Shown here: piece after piece, positions 13,500 through 35,098 of the stretch
Layout of the letters: each line of letters begins with the position of its first letter
Numbering within the stretch: position 1 is the first letter of the stretch
NCBI GenBank assembly: GCA_024281175.1
Contig: JAMJTW010000026.1
Span: 1-35,098, forward strand
From: Candidatus Thiovulum imperiosus
Lineage (GTDB): Bacteria; Campylobacterota; Campylobacteria; Campylobacterales; Thiovulaceae
Length of the DNA: 35,098 bases
Direction: 5' to 3'
The notes under the pieces: model-generated
Told to the model about the DNA's origin: nothing
Database searches by the model: none
What the model saw: only the letters and a program-made list of their open reading frames with translations
Made by a program: the position numbers and the translations under genes

Positions 13500-13539
13500 T
13501 TGAGTGTTCAAAATCAAAATAACTAAGGTTTTTAAAATT

Positions 13540-14493
13540 ATGCCATATATCTATAAAAGTGTTCTGAAAAGTTTTGAATATTCTACTGAAAATTACAAAA
13601 TAGTTTCCGATTTTCTCCTTGATGGTTTGAAAAACAATCCAGATATTCTTTTAAATGTAACAAAGATTTCCCAACATTTTGGAAAAAGACCAAATGATTG
13701 GTTTGCAAATCCAACTACAATCAGTTTTATTTCTAAACTTATAAACATAAAATTAAAATCTGGTGATAAAAAATTAGAAAAGAAAATACTTTCTTGGCTA
13801 AAGAACGAAAATATAGATGAAAATATATTTGACAAACGAATAAATTTAAGAGTTATTCATAAAAATCAAAATAAACAATTATTAAAACTTTTTAAAGAAA
13901 TTGGAATAATTGAAGTCAAAAAGGGTGGAGGGGATTTATCTTTTAAAGGAACTTGGATACATCAAGATTTACTTGAAGAGTATTTCAAGTGGTTGGCTAA
14001 TTCTGAAACTGTTGTTCAGCCAGATGGTTTATATCTAATTCAAGCTGGAGAATTTACAAAAATAGGAATTTCTCAAAATATTGAAAAACGAATTAAATCT
14101 ATGGAAACAGATAATCCATTAGAAATTAAACTACTTTTTTATAAAAAAATGGAAAATGTGAGAAAAGTTGAAAGTTTCTTACATAAGCAACTCAAAGAAT
14201 ACAATGTGAAAAATGAGTGGTTCAAATTAGATAAAAGACATAATTATCAAAAATATAGATGATTTACAAAAGCTAGAAGACTCTTTAGAAAACTTCAAAA
14301 CTCCTAAATCAAACTTATCAAAAAGACAATTAGAAATTTATTTTAAAATGAAAAATCTTCAACAAAAGAGATAGCTAAAAAAATTGGATTTTCAACTTCA
14401 ACAGTTTTGAAAGAACTAAAAGTTTTAATTTCAAATAAACAGATAGAAAGAATTAAAGTTGGAAGAAATGTATTTTACAAAAGAGCAACTTGA
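13540..14493 (+). pseudogene. KilA-N + MUG113 (GIY-YIG) + winged-HTH gene, twice frameshifted
   Basis: From the ATG at 13540 the first frame gives a KilA-N-type DNA-binding domain (about residues 35-165; HFGKRPNDWFANPTT and TWIHQDLLEEYFKWL). A T5orf172/MUG113 GIY-YIG-type nuclease domain follows (about 172-232; GLYLIQAGEFTKIGIS, RIKSM, VESFLHKQL). That frame stops at 14262. Near 14236-14241, in an A-run, a shift restores DIIIKNIDDLQKLEDSLENF and LSKRQLEIYFKMKN. A second shift at about 14357-14360 restores STKEIAKKIGFSTSTVLKEL, then QIERIKVGRNVFYKRAT, ending at TGA 14491. The winged-HTH tail closely matches that of the gene at 28102; where that gene has CTTTCAACAAAAGAG this one has one T fewer. 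The 240-residue first-frame product might still be made. Homopolymer sequencing error is the alternative explanation. Confidence 0.75.
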
Positions 14494-27603: not shown

Positions 27604-27610
27604 AATTCAA

Positions 27611-27645
27611 GATTTCTCAATCGCCATGCTCATTTCGAAATGACA
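27611..27645 (-). repeat. Half-copy of the GTCATTTCGA palindromic repeat
   Basis: The plus strand begins GATTTCTCAATCGCCATGCT and continues to TTTCGAAATGACA. It matches one arm of the fuller elements at 29220-29294 and 31831-31929. It lies just after the guaA stop. Confidence 0.75.
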
Positions 27646-27662
27646 GATTAAGGTAAAATAGA

Positions 27663-27750: not shown

Positions 27751-27857
27751 TTTTTGTAAAATTTCAAAAAAGGATTTTTATGGAGAGTGTAGAGAAAGAA
27801 GAGAATTTAGTAAAAAAGACTTGTCGAGAATTGGGAATTACACAAAAAGAGTTAGCG
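27751..27857 (+). repeat. HTH-cassette conserved leader, copy 1
   Basis: The run TTTTTGTAAAATTTC plus AAAAAAGGA, and then the codons for ENLVKKTCRELGITQKELA, are shared almost base for base with copies at 32777-32864 and 33932-34026. This copy has four extra codons after the ATG. Confidence 0.88.
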
Positions 27858-28010
27858 GAAATATTTCATGTTACACCTCACACAGTTACAAATTGGGTTC
27901 GAGGAAGAATGGAAGAAGTTCATAAAAGAGCTTTAAAAGGTTTAATTTATGAACATCGATTTCAAGAAATAAAATATAAACTACATGATGTAAGTTTAGA
28001 TAAACTATAA
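27780..28010 (+). CDS. Small HTH regulator, cassette family member 1
   Basis: A 76-residue protein starting MESVEKEENLVKKTCREL at the ATG 27780, with an AAAAAAGGA site 6-14 bases upstream. A longer frame from 27708 is open but starts inside the lipoprotein relic and lacks a ribosome site. A single XRE-like helix-turn-helix spans about residues 18-45: the first helix GITQKELAEIF is shared with the other family members, and the presumed recognition helix TPHTVTNWVRGR is unique to this copy. The C-terminal helix (ALKGLIYEHRFQEIKYKLHDVSLDKL) may dimerise. The stop lies 3 bases before a TTGACA promoter driving the Bro-N/nuclease gene, so this protein is the obvious candidate regulator of that promoter. 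Confidence 0.8.
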   Translation: MESVEKEENLVKKTCRELGITQKELAEIFHVTPHTVTNWVRGRMEEVHKRALKGLIYEHRFQEIKYKLHDVSLDKL

Positions 28011-28043: not shown

Positions 28044-28060
28044 ATTGTTGTTGGAAAAGA

Positions 28061-28102
28061 ATGGCACTCTTAACCAACAAAATTCAATTAAGGCTTACTT
28101 AA
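28061..28102 (+). other. Possible 13-codon leader ORF
   Basis: ATG at 28061 with GGAAAAG just upstream encodes MALLTNKIQLRLT and ends in TAATG, the last two letters overlapping the start of the nuclease gene. It would translationally couple that gene. It could be chance at this length. Confidence 0.25.
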
Positions 28103-28944
28103 TGAAGCACAAAATTATATCAAACTCCTTACAGTATGCTACTTTTAACTTTAATTCTTTAGAAATTAGAATAGTTATTATTAATGGTCAAGAATATTTC
28201 GTTGCTAAAGATGTAGCAGAATTACTAAGTTATAAAAGACCTGCTGATGCAGTTGCCCAACATTGTAAAAAAGCAATTGATTTTGAGGTCAGTAAATTAA
28301 ATTGCACAAATAATTTTAGCTCTAAAGCTAGAGTAATAAAACTCATTCCAGAGTCTGATGTTTTAAGACTAATTCATAAAAGTCAAAAAATTACAGAACA
28401 AGAAAAGAAACATATTGTCAGCTTTTTTGATTTTACAAAAACAGAAATATTTATCTCAAGACAAGAAACAGAGTTTGGAAAAGAGTTGAAAAATTTCATA
28501 AAAACTATTTACAATTTAGAAGTAGAAACTCAATATCCTGTAAAAAATTACAGATTGGACTTTTATATTCCAGAACTCAACTTGGCTATTGAATTTGACG
28601 AAAAACATCATAAATATCAAAAAGAAAAAGACGAAAAAAGAGAAAATGAAATTAAAGATATTTTAAATTGTAAATTTGCTAGAGTCTTTGAAGAGCAATC
28701 TATTGGAGAACAATTAGGTTTTGTTATAAAAGCAATAAATGAAGAACCTAAAAAAGAGATTTCTCTTTCAAAACGACAAAAACAGATTTTAGAATATTTA
28801 CAAAATCACAAGCTTTCAACAAAAGAGTTGTCTAAAAAACTTGGTTTTTCAAAATCAACAATTTTGAAAGATTTAAAATTTCTTATTGAAAATGAACAAA
28901 TAGAAAAAATCAAAAGCGGAAGAAATGTTTTCTATAAAGCCTAA
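28102..28944 (+). CDS. Bro-N + PD-(D/E)XK-like nuclease + winged-HTH protein
   Basis: A 280-residue three-domain protein. The Bro-N DNA-binding domain spans about residues 14-105 (FNSLEIRIVIINGQEYFVAKDVAELLSY). A restriction-endonuclease-fold domain of the DUF559/Vsr-like type spans about 120-215, with acidic core RLDFYIPELNLAIEFDEKHH and EKRENEIKDIL. The winged HTH spans about 222-280 (LSKRQKQILEYL, LSTKELSKKLGFSKSTILKDL). I start it at ATG 28102, with TAAGG 9-13 bases before. The in-frame TTG at 28045 overlaps the promoter and would precede or abut the transcription start. The winged HTH is nearly the same as that of the broken gene at 13540, whose nuclease domain is of another fold. The HTH1 gene lies upstream. 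A phage-type regulator, nuclease effector or defence gene are all possible. Confidence 0.78.
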   Translation: MKHKIISNSLQYATFNFNSLEIRIVIINGQEYFVAKDVAELLSYKRPADAVAQHCKKAIDFEVSKLNCTNNFSSKARVIKLIPESDVLRLIHKSQKITEQEKKHIVSFFDFTKTEIFISRQETEFGKELKNFIKTIYNLEVETQYPVKNYRLDFYIPELNLAIEFDEKHHKYQKEKDEKRENEIKDILNCKFARVFEEQSIGEQLGFVIKAINEEPKKEISLSKRQKQILEYLQNHKLSTKELSKKLGFSKSTILKDLKFLIENEQIEKIKSGRNVFYKA

Positions 28945-29144
28945 ACTTCCTCCCAACAGAACTTGGAAAGTTACACGGAATTTCTGGAAGAGAAACAAAT
29001 TTGAAACTCAAGGCTTTAGGCTTTCAAGTTTCTGAAAACTCCATTTGGAAACTTACAGAAAAAGGAAAAGAGTTTGGAATGGAATACCGTGGAAAGTTTT
29101 CCCAACTCAAATGGAAACTTTATACACCAATATATATAGACTAA
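28938..29144 (+). pseudogene. C-terminal relic of an antirepressor-like gene
   Basis: A 68-codon open frame without a start, beginning inside the end of the nuclease gene. It reads LNFLPTELGKLHGISGRETN, then LKLKALGFQVSENSIWKLTE, then KGKEFGMEYRGKFSQLKWKL and YTPIYID. The arrangement TELG...LN/LK-LKxLGFQ...WxLTEKGKEF is the C-terminal domain of phage antirepressors and parallels KLNLILEEKGFQTRNEKVWE in the genes at 33134 and 34306. The 5' part is missing, so the Bro-N/nuclease gene probably replaced it. Confidence 0.6.
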
Positions 29145-29180: not shown

Positions 29181-29219
29181 TTCTCAAAAAAAAGGAGAGG
29201 GGAGTTTGACAAAATAGTT

Positions 29220-29294
29220 TGTCATTTCGATATGAGCATGGCGATTGAGAAATCTTAAAAAAGTATTTCTCACCCGAAAGGGTTCGAAATGACA
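29220..29294 (+). repeat. Full palindromic repeat (GTCATTTCGA family) in the clpB leader
   Basis: Outer arms TGTCATTTCGA / TCGAAATGACA and inner arms TGAGAAAT / ATTTCTCA are interrupted on one side by a CCC-GAAA-GGG side hairpin. It would form a branched RNA or cruciform. It ends 28 bases before the clpB ATG. Confidence 0.8.
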
Positions 29295-29322
29295 AGTTTG
29301 GTCGTTCCCAAGGAGAAAAGAT

Positions 29323-31803: not shown

Positions 31804-31830
31804 AATTGCAAAATAGGCTTTTACCTCTCT

Positions 31831-31929
31831 TGTCATTTCGAACCCTTTTGGGTGAGAAATCCTTGTATTGAACAAAGTGAAATATCTTTTTCAAGATTTC
31901 TCAACCGCTACGCTCATATCGAAATGACG
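31831..31929 (-). repeat. Full palindromic repeat between clpB and the lipoprotein gene
   Basis: Outer arms GTCATTTCGA / TCGAAATGAC and inner arms TGAGAAATC / GATTTCTCA, with a CCC-TTTT-GGG side hairpin. It is in reverse orientation to the copy at 29220-29294 and has a longer central loop. It lies between convergent genes, so it may serve as a terminator. Confidence 0.8.
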
Positions 31930-31938
31930 GAGAAGAAA

Positions 31939-32751
31939 CTAGTCTAAGTTTCGGACGCATAGAGTATGATATTTCTCACTGTTACTTGAATTGCCACTTC
32001 CATAACTAGCACCAATAAGATATGAAGATGTGCTAGTCCAATATAAATTTTGCAAATTTCTAAATCTATTTCTATTTTGAAAAATTTTCAACTCTTCATG
32101 ATTTGGAAGTTTCCAATCCGTAAATCCATGTAGATTTTCGCAATATCTATTTGCATCTTTCCAAGTCATCGCATTTTGCAGGTGTTTTAGAAACATCAAA
32201 TTCCCAATGATTACAATTTCAAAAGGAATTTCAAATTTTGACGAGTATTTTTCTGCACTTGCTCCAACTATCCAAAGTTCTCCATTTCTCTCTTCAAATT
32301 TCATATCAAATTGCTTCACACTACCTTTAAAACTTTCGGCTTTAGCAATAGGAACAGCAATCTGAAAAGGAATACTATTTACCGTAACATCAAAAACCTC
32401 ATCATCAGGGCGATACTTCATCGAAATGCTTTGTCTTCCAAGCCAAGAGTTTAAAATCTCACCTTTCTCATTTTCAATTGCTTTCTGATTTCTAGCTTTA
32501 CACTCCTCTTTCTTTTTTCTAAAAGTCTCTTTTCTCTTTTGATAGGCTTCACTCTTTTCAAACTCTCCTTGAGAAGAGATACTACTTGGACAACTCTCTT
32601 GAGAAATCTTCGGTCTCACTATCTGGACTGCTTCGCCAAAACTCGTTGCATTCGCTACTTCTGGATACTTTGGAGAATTTCCCGTCCAAACTAAACCTTT
32701 ACTTGAACAACCTGCAAAAAGCAGGAAAACTAAAATTGCAAAATATCTCAC
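31939..32751 (-). CDS. DUF1566 (Lcl-type) lipoprotein
   Basis: A 270-residue lipoprotein starting at GTG with a strong GGAG site. The signal MRYFAILVFLLFAGCSS has lipidated Cys15. The middle third is charged and helical (KSEAYQKRKETFRKKKEECKARNQKA). The C-terminal ~85 residues form a DUF1566 domain: FLKHLQNAMTWKDANRYCEN, GFTDWKLPNHEELK, NLYWTSTSS, then the closing VRNLD. DUF1566 has a C-type-lectin-like fold seen in surface adhesins such as Legionella Lcl; the ligand is unknown. It is divergent from the HTH gene at 32799, with only 47 bases between starts. Its leader and first codons resemble the relics at 26008 and 27677. Confidence 0.8.
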   Translation of the reverse strand: MRYFAILVFLLFAGCSSKGLVWTGNSPKYPEVANATSFGEAVQIVRPKISQESCPSSISSQGEFEKSEAYQKRKETFRKKKEECKARNQKAIENEKGEILNSWLGRQSISMKYRPDDEVFDVTVNSIPFQIAVPIAKAESFKGSVKQFDMKFEERNGELWIVGASAEKYSSKFEIPFEIVIIGNLMFLKHLQNAMTWKDANRYCENLHGFTDWKLPNHEELKIFQNRNRFRNLQNLYWTSTSSYLIGASYGSGNSSNSEKYHTLCVRNLD

Positions 32752-32764
32752 GACACTCCTTTTT

Positions 32765-32770
32765 TATAAT
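32765..32770 (+). promoter_or_regulatory. -10 box for HTH cassette 2
   Basis: TATAAT 29 bases before the ATG at 32799. The 47-base divergent gap must also contain the lipoprotein promoter or its leader, so the two genes are probably co-regulated. Confidence 0.45.
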
Positions 32771-32776
32771 TCTAAT

Positions 32777-32864
32777 AAAATTTCAAAAAAGGAAAATTAT
32801 GGAAGAAGAGAATTTAGTAAAAAAGACTTGTCGAGAATTGGGAATTACTCAAAAAGAGTTGGCT
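32777..32864 (+). repeat. HTH-cassette conserved leader, copy 2
   Basis: AAAATTTCAAAAAAGGAAAA and the first ~22 codons are nearly identical to copy 3 (33932-34026). Upstream of the AAAATTTC the sequence differs (CTAAT in place of TTTGT), because here the lipoprotein gene precedes the cassette. Confidence 0.88.
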
Positions 32865-33035
32865 GAAAAAACTTCAATATCTTTACCAACAATCAATAGA
32901 TGGAGTTCTACCAATAAAATACCTAAACAGAATGTTATGTTTTTAAATCTTCTTCTTGAAAATAATCAATTACAAAATCAACTTTCTGAATTTCAAAACT
33001 TTTTTCATAAATTTAATAAACTCTCTTCAATATAA
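32799..33035 (+). CDS. Small HTH regulator, cassette family member 2
   Basis: A 78-residue protein from ATG 32799 with an AAAAAAGGA site. Residues 1-22 are the same as in member 3 (MEEENLVKKTCRELGITQKE...). The helix-turn-helix continues with a private recognition helix (SISLPTINRWSSTNK) and a leucine/asparagine-rich C-terminal helix (NLLLENNQLQNQLSEFQNFFHKF), a likely coiled coil for dimerisation. A longer in-frame start at 32586 would lie inside the opposite lipoprotein gene and is rejected. A hairpin sits on its stop codon. A strong promoter with an AT-rich palindrome follows and drives the antirepressor-like gene at 33134. Confidence 0.82.
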   Translation: MEEENLVKKTCRELGITQKELAEKTSISLPTINRWSSTNKIPKQNVMFLNLLLENNQLQNQLSEFQNFFHKFNKLSSI

Positions 33036-33061
33036 AGGGGGTGTCATTTTGACGACCCCTT
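33035..33061 (+). terminator. Hairpin after HTH cassette 2
   Basis: Stem AAGGGGGTGTCA / TGACGACCCCTT with one mismatch and a TTT loop, immediately at the stop codon. It separates the regulator transcript from its partner gene. Confidence 0.55.
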
Positions 33062-33108
33062 AAAATAATAATTATTTTTTGACAAAACAATTATTTTAAT
33101 AGTATTAT
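33062..33108 (+). promoter_or_regulatory. Promoter and putative operator of antirepressor gene 1
   Basis: TTGACA (33079-33084), 18-bp spacer, TATTAT (33103-33108). The palindrome AAAATAAT-A-ATTATTTT (33062-33078) abuts the -35 box. The leader is about 20 bases, with GGA at 33125 as ribosome site. Confidence 0.6.
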
Positions 33109-33133
33109 TCTCAGTAAATTTATTGGAATAACA

Positions 33134-33940
33134 ATGTTAGTGAAATTTGAGAATATCAATATAGAAGTTGAAAGAAATTCAAAGCATGAGTTTTTAATTT
33201 CAAATAGCGAAGTCGCGAAAGGTTATGGAGTTCAAGAAAAATCTTTATTGCGAACTAAAACTAGACATGAAGATGAACTGATAGAGAGAAAACATTTCAT
33301 CTTTTTAGAAGTTCAAACAAAAGGTGGAAAACAGAAAAAGATTTTCTGGACAAAACGGGGAGTAATTCGGCTTGGGTTTTTTATAAAATCTGAAAGAGCC
33401 AAGAAGTTTCGAGATTGGGCAGAAGATTTAATACTTTCGGAAATTGAAGCAGTTCCAAGTTTGCAGAAGCTAGAAGAGAGAGCAAAACTTTTGGAAATTT
33501 CGGAAAAGGAGTTTTATATCTTTGAGAGAGTCTTTTTCAAGTTGGGCATTACTAGACCTGAAGAACTTGCAATTACAACAAATAGAGCAGTGAAAAAAGA
33601 GACTGGAGTCGATTTCCTCAAAATTTCCGAAAAGAAAGGAATTTCCACACTTGAAAACTATATCACTGTAACAGAACTTTGTGAAATTATCCGAAAAGGA
33701 GAATACTCCGATGAGGTGAAATCCTCTGTTTCTACAAAAGACCTGTCCAAACCGAACCCTCGCAAACTAAATTTGATTTTAGAAGAGAAAGGCTTCCAAA
33801 CCCGAAATGAGAAGGTTTGGGAAGCTACTGAGAAAGGGAAAAAGTTTTCAAATTTCGTTCAAAACAAATCTAAAACTTCTGAAAAAACTATTTATCACCT
33901 AACTTGGAAAAAGGAAGTTTTGGAAGAACTCTTTTTGTAA
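33134..33940 (+). CDS. Phage antirepressor-like protein 1
   Basis: A 268-residue protein. The N-terminal part (1-100) resembles phage antirepressor/Bro-type DNA-binding domains: SEVAKGYGVQEKSLLRTKTRHEDELIERKHFIF, then the very conserved KIFWTKRGVIRLGFFIKSERAKKFRDWAEDLI. A linker helix (KLEERAKLLEISEKEFYIF) and a central segment follow. The C-terminal antirepressor domain (about 175-268) has NYITVTELCEIIRKG, PNPRKLNLILEEKGFQTRNE, VWEATEKGKKF and YHLTWKKEVLEEL. No nuclease motif is seen. It has its own promoter and follows HTH member 2. The paralogue at 34306 is near-identical outside residues ~12-50. A regulatory role opposing a repressor is inferred from family resemblance. Confidence 0.72.
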   Translation: MLVKFENINIEVERNSKHEFLISNSEVAKGYGVQEKSLLRTKTRHEDELIERKHFIFLEVQTKGGKQKKIFWTKRGVIRLGFFIKSERAKKFRDWAEDLILSEIEAVPSLQKLEERAKLLEISEKEFYIFERVFFKLGITRPEELAITTNRAVKKETGVDFLKISEKKGISTLENYITVTELCEIIRKGEYSDEVKSSVSTKDLSKPNPRKLNLILEEKGFQTRNEKVWEATEKGKKFSNFVQNKSKTSEKTIYHLTWKKEVLEELFL

Positions 33941-34026
33941 AATTTCAAAAAAGGAAAAATATGGAAGAAGAGAATTTAGTAAAAAAGACTTGTCGAGAAT
34001 TGGGAATTACTCAAAAAGAGTTAGCT
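33932..34026 (+). repeat. HTH-cassette conserved leader, copy 3
   Basis: It begins in the last codons of the antirepressor gene at 33134 (TTT TTG TAA). The same TTTTTGTAAAATTTC string opens copy 1 at 27751, where no such gene precedes it. Confidence 0.88.
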
Positions 34027-34215
34027 AGACAAATGGGAGTTAGCGACTCAACAGTTAGACACTGGAACTCCAATAATGAATTTCCAAACATAGCAAAGAA
34101 TTTTATGAAATTAATTTTAGAAAATAGAGAGTTAAAAAATAGATTTCAAAAAGTAGAAAACTTCCTACTTTTAATAGATGAAGTAAAGGGTGTTCAAAAA
34201 ATGAACACCCTTTGA
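33961..34215 (+). CDS. Small HTH regulator, cassette family member 3
   Basis: An 84-residue protein starting 20 bases after the antirepressor stop, with AAAAAAGGA as ribosome site. The N-terminus matches members 1 and 2. Its private recognition helix is GVSDSTVRHWNSNNE, and the C-terminal helix is MKLILENRELKNRFQKVENFLLLIDEV, coiled-coil-like. The last codons and stop form the right arm of a perfect 12-bp hairpin. A TTGACT promoter and an antirepressor paralogue follow, repeating the arrangement of the previous module. Confidence 0.82.
   Translation: MEEENLVKKTCRELGITQKELARQMGVSDSTVRHWNSNNEFPNIAKNFMKLILENRELKNRFQKVENFLLLIDEVKGVQKMNTL
34185..34213 (+). terminator. Hairpin over the end of HTH cassette 3
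   Basis: Perfect 12-bp stem AAAGGGTGTTCA / TGAACACCCTTT with a five-A loop, overlapping the stop codon. No T-run follows beyond TTT. Confidence 0.65.
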
Positions 34216-34222
34216 AACATGC

Positions 34223-34288
34223 AAATAAAACACATTTATTTAAAATAATATGCTGTATTTGACTTTATGCCTAAAACTAAGATAAACT
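34223..34288 (+). promoter_or_regulatory. Promoter and putative operator of antirepressor gene 2
   Basis: TTGACT (34259-34264), 18-bp spacer, TAAACT (34283-34288). The inverted repeat AAATAAA-ACACA-TTTATTT (34223-34241) lies 17 bases upstream of the -35 box. It differs from the palindromes of modules 1 and 2. Confidence 0.5.
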
Positions 34289-34305
34289 AAAAGAAAAGTG
34301 TCAAC

Positions 34306-35098
34306 ATGCTTGTAAAATTTGAGAATATAGATATTGAAGTTGAGGAAAATCAAAAATATGAGTTTTTAATTTCTAATAGTGAAGTTGCAAAAGGTTATGG
34401 TATTTCAGAAATTACTTTACGGCGACATAGAAGTAATAATGAAAATGAACTGATAGAGAAAAAACATTTCATCTTTTTAGAAGTTCAAACAAAAGGTGGG
34501 AAACAGAAAAAGATTTTCTGGACAAAACGGGGAGTAATTCGACTTGGATTTTTTATAAAATCTGAAAGAGCCAAAAAGTTTCGAGATTGGGCAGAAGATT
34601 TGATACTTTCAGAAGTTGAGGCAGTTCTAAGTTTGCAAAAGCTAGAAGAGAGAGCAAAACTTTTGGAAATTTCGGAAAAAGAGTTTCATATCTTCCAAAG
34701 AGTGTTTCGAGAACTCGGTATTACTAGACCTGAAGAGTTAGCAATTACAACAAATCGAGCAGTGAAAAAAGAGACTGGAGTCGATTTCCTCAAGATTTCC
34801 GAAAAGAAAGGAGTTTCTACACTCGAAAACTATATCACTGTAACAGAGCTTTGTGAAATTGTCCGAAAAGGAGATTTTCCAGAAGAAACAAAACTTTCTG
34901 TTTCTACAAAAAATGACAAGCCAAATCCTCGAAAACTAAACCTCATCTTAGAAGAAAATGGTTTTCAAACCCGAAATGAGAAGGTTTGGGAAGCCACAGA
35001 AAAAGGGAAACCTTTTGCAGATTTCGTTCAAAACAAATCTAAAACTTCTGAAAAAACTATTTATCACCTAACTTGGAAAAAGGAAGTTTTGGAAGAAC
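34306..35098 (+). CDS. Phage antirepressor-like protein 2, 3'-truncated by window edge
   Basis: A frame of 264 codons open to the last base. It starts MLVKFENIDIEVEENQKYEF with an AGAAAAG site about 10 bases upstream. It is the close paralogue of the gene at 33134. From KKHFIFLEVQTKGGKQKKIF onward the two proteins differ only at scattered positions, whereas the HTH-like stretch (GYGISEITLRRHRSNNENEL versus GYGVQEKSLLRTKTRHEDEL) is largely different. The visible sequence ends at WKKEVLEE, four residues short of the paralogue's end, so only the stop is missing. By analogy another HTH leader may follow outside the window. Confidence 0.75.
   Translation, partial: MLVKFENIDIEVEENQKYEFLISNSEVAKGYGISEITLRRHRSNNENELIEKKHFIFLEVQTKGGKQKKIFWTKRGVIRLGFFIKSERAKKFRDWAEDLILSEVEAVLSLQKLEERAKLLEISEKEFHIFQRVFRELGITRPEELAITTNRAVKKETGVDFLKISEKKGVSTLENYITVTELCEIVRKGDFPEETKLSVSTKNDKPNPRKLNLILEENGFQTRNEKVWEATEKGKPFADFVQNKSKTSEKTIYHLTWKKEVLEE

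Follow-up and report, generated by a model that had tools for sequence, protein, structure and literature searches.

We analysed a 35,098-nucleotide stretch of a Candidatus Thiovulum imperiosus scaffold (contig JAMJTW010000026.1, here C26; hereafter the window), the right end of which is occupied by a tandem repeat of two forward-strand units (unit 1, 32799-33940; unit 2, 33961-35098+), each consisting of an Xre-type helix-turn-helix (HTH) gene (gene 1) and an antirepressor-type gene (gene 2). Unit 1 opens with a constant leader (32770..32798), an AT-rich promoter/RBS stretch (TAAAATTTCAAAAAAGGA), followed by a gene for a 78-aa Xre/Cro-type HTH protein (32799..33035; Pfam HTH_3, 8.9e-06, over cut-off), which is constant up to ~32870 and variable beyond. 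A hairpin (AAGGGGgTGTCatttTGACgaCCCCTT, 33035..33061) that overlaps the HTH stop and is retained in the same-genus relative G001 is followed by a promoter-like site (TTGACA-18-TATTAT, 33079..33108; 11/12, a consensus match only) and by gene 2 (33134..33940), encoding a 268-aa antirepressor-type protein with a Bro-N-like N-domain (Pfam Bro-N, 3.8e-05, just under cut-off) and a constant C-domain. The stop codon of this gene falls within the constant leader of unit 2 (33932..33960, TTTTTGTAAAATTTCAAAAAAGGA exact). Gene 1 of unit 2 encodes an 84-aa Xre-type HTH protein (33961..34215; HTH_3, 4.3e-06, over cut-off) with a recognition helix that differs from that of unit 1; its end is overlapped by a hairpin read directly from the sequence (AAAGGGTGTTC-loop-GAACACCCTTT, 34185..34213), and behind a weak promoter-like site (TTGACT-18-TAAACT, 34259..34288; 9/12) the antirepressor-type gene 2 (34306..35098; Bro-N, 4.3e-07, over cut-off) enters a 98-N assembly gap.

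The earlier note on this DNA had described a 1,172-bp unit. This spacing was confirmed for the antirepressor starts at 33134 and 34306, and the direct-repeat search shows the repeat (33134-33433 / 34306-34605, spacing 1172, 87%; 33748-33929 / 34917-35098, spacing 1169, 89%), whereas the HTH genes lie 1,162 bp apart. The HTH leader is itself repeated (32776-32871 / 33938-34033, 95%), with a diverged third copy at 27769-27864, and the leader pattern occurs three times (two exact, one with 3 mismatches) versus 0 expected in shuffles. Sliding identity between the two units was 95-98% in the leader, 57-75% in the HTH 3' part and intergenic region, 70% in the N-segment of gene 2 (33229-33288) and mostly 88-100% beyond, and "near-identical" past residue ~50, as had been claimed, is too strong: in two later patches (~33499-33588 and ~33679-33798) identity falls to 74-78%.

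A third module lies further left on the same strand, with an exact leader (27751-27774, leader pattern search), a 76-aa HTH gene identified with Pfam (27780-28010, within 27751..28010) and a gene 2 (28045..28944) that combines Bro-N (2.7e-12), a DUF559/MTES_1575-like nuclease domain (DUF559, 4.3e-06) and a C-terminal HTH (HTH_11, 1.7e-08). Directly behind it is an orphan C-domain (FLPTELGKLHGISGRETNL...WKLTEKGKEFG, 28947..29120, forward strand) of a kind that other gene 2 copies carry, which, judged by its sequence, is a trace of C-domain exchange (a mosaic). Several other elements were observed in the window. A dispersed repeat, GTCATTTCGA...GAGAAATC, is found at 27606-27650, 29215-29296 and 31829-31931 and also ahead of a number of modules at other places in the genome; the 5' region of a gene for an Lcl_C-domain protein (31939-32751, minus strand) is duplicated along with a module at G000:C14:136783; and an ORF at 13504-14262 with a weak KilA-N match (3.1e-08) is unattached to any leader module. 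An Rfam search of the window gave no match.

The contig (68,242 bp) goes on past the window, where 98 Ns (contig positions 35099-35196) mark a scaffold gap. The 440 bp after the gap match the 3' part of gene 2 (96.6% identity to copy 2, 86% to copy 1), and because unit 2 already covers this gene segment, the post-gap segment would, provided that the scaffold was joined correctly, be a third copy. About 90 bp beyond it lies ilvD, which was recognised by reading its sequence by eye. The unit is thus open at the window end, as had been noted, and runs into the gap, the third 3' copy and ilvD. Reading rightward for another leader and HTH gene yielded the 3' part of gene 2 only, and the return to a housekeeping gene comes behind that copy rather than directly. 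Tandem arrays do occur, as runs of several units in a closed relative; here, as assembled, the run is short. In both genomes a module array adjoins ilvD.

Genome-wide searches showed the scale of the family, whose members are both dispersed and stacked in tandem along the chromosomes of these giant sulfur bacteria. In the Ca. Thiovulum imperiosus genome (G000; 36 scaffolds, 2.20 Mb), 34 places matched at the DNA level and 31 HTH places at the protein level; the genome carries about 30 repressor/antirepressor pairs, and about 33 pairs were found in the relative's closed genome (G004; 1 contig, 1.72 Mb), where units of ~1.2 kb form tandem runs at 286.6-291.4 kb, at 433.6-437.2 kb and within 897-960 kb. 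Two relatives had 32 and 34 HTH matches; outside these three genomes, a 298-genome sample of the phylum had mostly 0-3 and at most 8, under a stricter E limit. Similarly, Bro-N (19-26 per genome) and KilA-N (17-24) are abundant in the three Thiovulaceae genomes, whereas almost every other genome in the order Campylobacterales has 0-1 Bro-N or KilA-N genes, and a genome scan with gene 2 found a match in a Ca. T. karukerense MAG. We compared the placement of 18 cassette pairs with matching variable parts (17/18 across genomes) and found that most had no flanking gene in common; where flanking genes did match, they mainly belonged to other modules or to multicopy families. About a quarter of the modules had no downstream ORF of at least 200 aa, partly at the ends of fetched stretches and partly through decay. 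Within Ca. Thiovulum imperiosus, two modules with identical HTH proteins, C25:27813 and C25:44220, are followed by the same genes in opposite orientation and form a large inverted duplication ~16 kb apart.

The earlier proposal of a constant scaffold around a variable DNA-contacting segment holds genome-wide. The constant leader spans ~95 bp, promoter/RBS included. The first HTH helices hardly vary: 17 leader residues, LVKKTCRELGITQKELA, are shared without change by 54 modules drawn from three genomes, these being the modules with a perfect 17-residue match selected out of 78. Among the 70 modules with at least 12/17 leader matches, entropy was 0-0.8 bits in leader columns and 3.3, 3.6 and 3.0 bits in the helix-3 contact columns, which we assigned according to the general pattern of HTH_3 proteins, while the structural T, I/V and W are conserved; variability so much higher at contact than at structural positions suggests selection for specificity. 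Third positions of the leader agree more within genomes (0.74-0.81) than between genomes (0.58-0.60), which therefore indicates conservation at the protein level together with greater DNA likeness inside each genome. The leader sequences thus suggest protein constraint plus within-genome homogenisation.

For gene 2, variation is not confined to an HTH-like stretch, as had been supposed, since entire N-domains are swapped. Pfam assigned these to Bro-N, KilA-N, Rha and, once, AntA; the C-ends fall into few types that are freely combined with the N-types, Bro-N, KilA-N and Rha each occurring with both C1 and C2. Exchange can be followed in individual pairs of the closed genome: modules at 898436 and 957645 have the HTH and intergenic region in common and diverge inside Bro-N, and those at 287823 and 289009 have the variable HTH in common and different leaders. 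The Pfam search of gene 2 proteins gave no KilAC match, a W-x-LTEKG motif being KilAC-like by eye only, and an AF2 model of gene 2 from 3 sequences was poor (pLDDT 43).

The HTH promoter and leader are constant, and any cassette-specific operator is therefore expected between the two genes, where gene 2 is preceded by a promoter-like site of its own (consensus match). Tests for a common palindrome within recognition-helix groups were mostly not significant, and inverted repeats between the genes were no commoner than in control flanks. Intergenic similarity tracks HTH similarity for close pairs only, a pattern that descent alone would yield. In Rha-type modules, a conserved RNA hairpin in the 5'UTR (CTCCAAtCAAGTAGAAA..TTTCTATTTG..ATTGGAG) covers the ribosome-binding site of the antirepressor gene (C10:57073, C10:100116, C14:132520, C30:42831, C30:43932 and C31:3252 in Ca. 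Thiovulum imperiosus; 287823, 433561, 1067755 and others in the closed relative). It forms 171/187 pairs with 5 compensatory columns and a conserved G-U pair (0/2000 shuffles), counted on a hand-split alignment of related sequences, which may beat such shuffles even without structure.

CRISPR-type repeat arrays were also observed near modules. Three repeat families are represented, and each of the following arrays is flanked on one side by an antirepressor module or a Bro-N gene that points away from it (C8:223472-223558, C9:3703-3859, C26:55162-55386 and C31:35354-35441 in Ca. Thiovulum imperiosus; C1:901203-902288, 909393-911723 and 960185-961697 in G004). In the C9 array the module sits between repeats, and array and module copies within one genome look duplicated together; arrays C26:66154 and C24:65 have neither module nor Bro-N gene. 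Cas1 was not found, and a type III CRISPR-Cas-like operon recognised by eye (Csm2/Csm3-like and Cas6-like proteins; G000:C26:57345-65689, L147) is likewise without Cas1. CreTA-like control of modules by CRISPR spacers was rejected, since none of the spacers matched a module convincingly.

Switches built from a repressor and an antirepressor are a textbook feature of phages. In prophage-like regions of genomes G014 and G040, homologues of the HTH gene stand ahead of antirepressors of the Rha, Bro-N or AntA type, beside RecT-, SSB-, exonuclease- and integrase-like genes (read by eye), and isolated temperate Nitratiruptor phages carry the same HTH and antirepressor pair, NrS-3 having two. NrS-4 is annotated with a separate LexA-like repressor, and the pair therefore looks like an accessory early module rather than the main immunity repressor. 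An IMG/VR scan with the HTH gave 14 viral loci; the same scan with gene 2 gave no match. For the modules themselves, a prophage was rejected, as structural, packaging and integrase genes are absent from the ORF lists around those inspected (read by eye). A diversity-generating retroelement was discarded because the variable parts differ in length and entire domain type, unlike a point-substituted repeat. Against known anti-phage defence families, the window units had weak partial PADLOC matches only (PDC-S05/S69, mad1).

Since phages carry the same pair and matching sites are mostly non-syntenic, we consider it probable (roughly 85%) that the family came from phages and forms a repertoire of cassettes that has been amplified, and recombines, in Thiovulaceae. 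That the modules are instead degenerate prophage remnants, the regulatory regions of lost prophages, seems very improbable: the gene pair is indeed a phage early-region pair, but no phage structural, replication or integrase genes were recognised beside inspected modules, which stand singly or in pure arrays amid housekeeping genes with leaders homogenised within genomes, and the pure tandem arrays of the closed genome had already weakened this explanation. We give as little credence to domesticated host regulators of neighbouring host genes, a role that stable presence in three genomes and the position beside ilvD in both Ca. Thiovulum imperiosus and G004 would suit, although neighbours mostly differ between genomes and no common regulon is visible.

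Rather more weight, though still on the doubtful side, goes to selfish two-gene cassettes that spread and persist like toxin-antitoxin elements or phage morons with no benefit to the cell, the constant ends then reflecting recombination and shared descent. Mostly non-syntenic placement, occurrence both in phages and in chromosomes, and broken copies are in keeping with this, the decay behind part of the missing gene 2 ORFs fitting selfish turnover too. Xre-Bro pairs have moreover been classed with TA-like mobile pairs (PMC2701414), and Ant/Bro proteins inhibit growth (PMC4257102). However, no insertion machinery was seen alongside the modules, the 17 leader residues do not differ between genera at the protein level, and the contact positions vary far beyond the structural ones, suggesting selection for specificity.

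The fuller account, in which phage-derived cassettes diversify by exchange of their middles and also repress gene 2 and act against phages, we hold at slightly better than even odds. Counting against it are the operator tests, the finding that Xre fails to neutralise Ant/Bro toxicity in pneumococcus (PMC4257102), and the lack of any CRISPR spacer or other sequence that indicates which phages the cassettes would recognise. The Xre protein would be expressed from the constant leader promoter and would shut off gene 2 of its own cassette, which has a separate promoter specific to that cassette; the region of this promoter is presumably the sole variable regulatory DNA in the module. Should repression be lost, for instance through titration or inactivation of Xre by an incoming phage, gene 2 would be made; its N-domain would contact a regulator or DNA specific to the cassette, and its C-domain might target a common partner and so interfere with phage development or with growth of the host. 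The hairpin over the ribosome-binding site could act as a further lock in modules of the Rha type, and with about 30 cassettes many phage specificities might be covered. The furthest extension, a chromosomal combinatorial anti-phage repertoire of dozens of orthogonal phage-regulator sensors, with DNA-recognition middles (recognition helix, operator/5'UTR and gene 2 N-domain) swapped by recombination and renewed from phages, appears unlikely. If each Xre protein controls its own cassette only, the modules would amount to a natural collection of orthogonal repressors with their operators, and the origin of their specificities and their use by the host against phages would become testable.

Among known systems, Nitratiruptor phages NrS-2 to NrS-5 come close, with a closely similar HTH N-terminus (ENIVKKVCKELGITQKELAE) followed by an antirepressor gene; they differ in that their pairs are low in copy number and form part of complete genomes of temperate phages, close to genes for RecT, SSB and exonuclease. 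The bro families of baculoviruses and large DNA viruses, reportedly described by Iyer et al. in 2002 as many paralogues with shuffled Bro-N/KilA domains, belong to eukaryotic DNA viruses and are without an Xre partner cassette. Some Thiovulum gene 2 proteins have an N-terminal KilA-N-type domain like that of the abortive infection protein BstA, for which a cis element near the gene start confers cognate specificity; BstA is prophage-encoded, with no Xre partner described in the sections of the report considered here (PMC8585504), and its likeness to gene 2 is a resemblance only. The text on Thiovulum genomes in PMC9938260 does not mention antirepressor or KilA, and we found no description of a chromosomal repertoire of this size in the open-access literature, an absence that is no proof of novelty. 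Also among the closest is the phage Xre-Bro repressor/antirepressor pair of Makarova et al. 2009 (PMC2701414), a small Xre HTH gene plus an antirepressor with a Bro-N N-domain and a separate C-domain. In Thiovulum, too, an Xre/Cro HTH gene directly adjoins an antirepressor gene on the same strand, and Pfam places the antirepressor N-domain in Bro-N (or KilA-N, AntA or Rha); a phage or prophage location was found for the homologues in G014, G040 and NrS-3, and not for the Thiovulaceae copies inspected. The Thiovulum modules further differ in their KilA-N, Rha and AntA versions and in being chromosomal, at ~30 copies per genome, with ends that stay constant and middles that are exchanged. A pair described in 2009 as occurring in phages and not in bacterial genomes is thus found here about 30 times per genome, as cassettes with fixed ends and variable middles.
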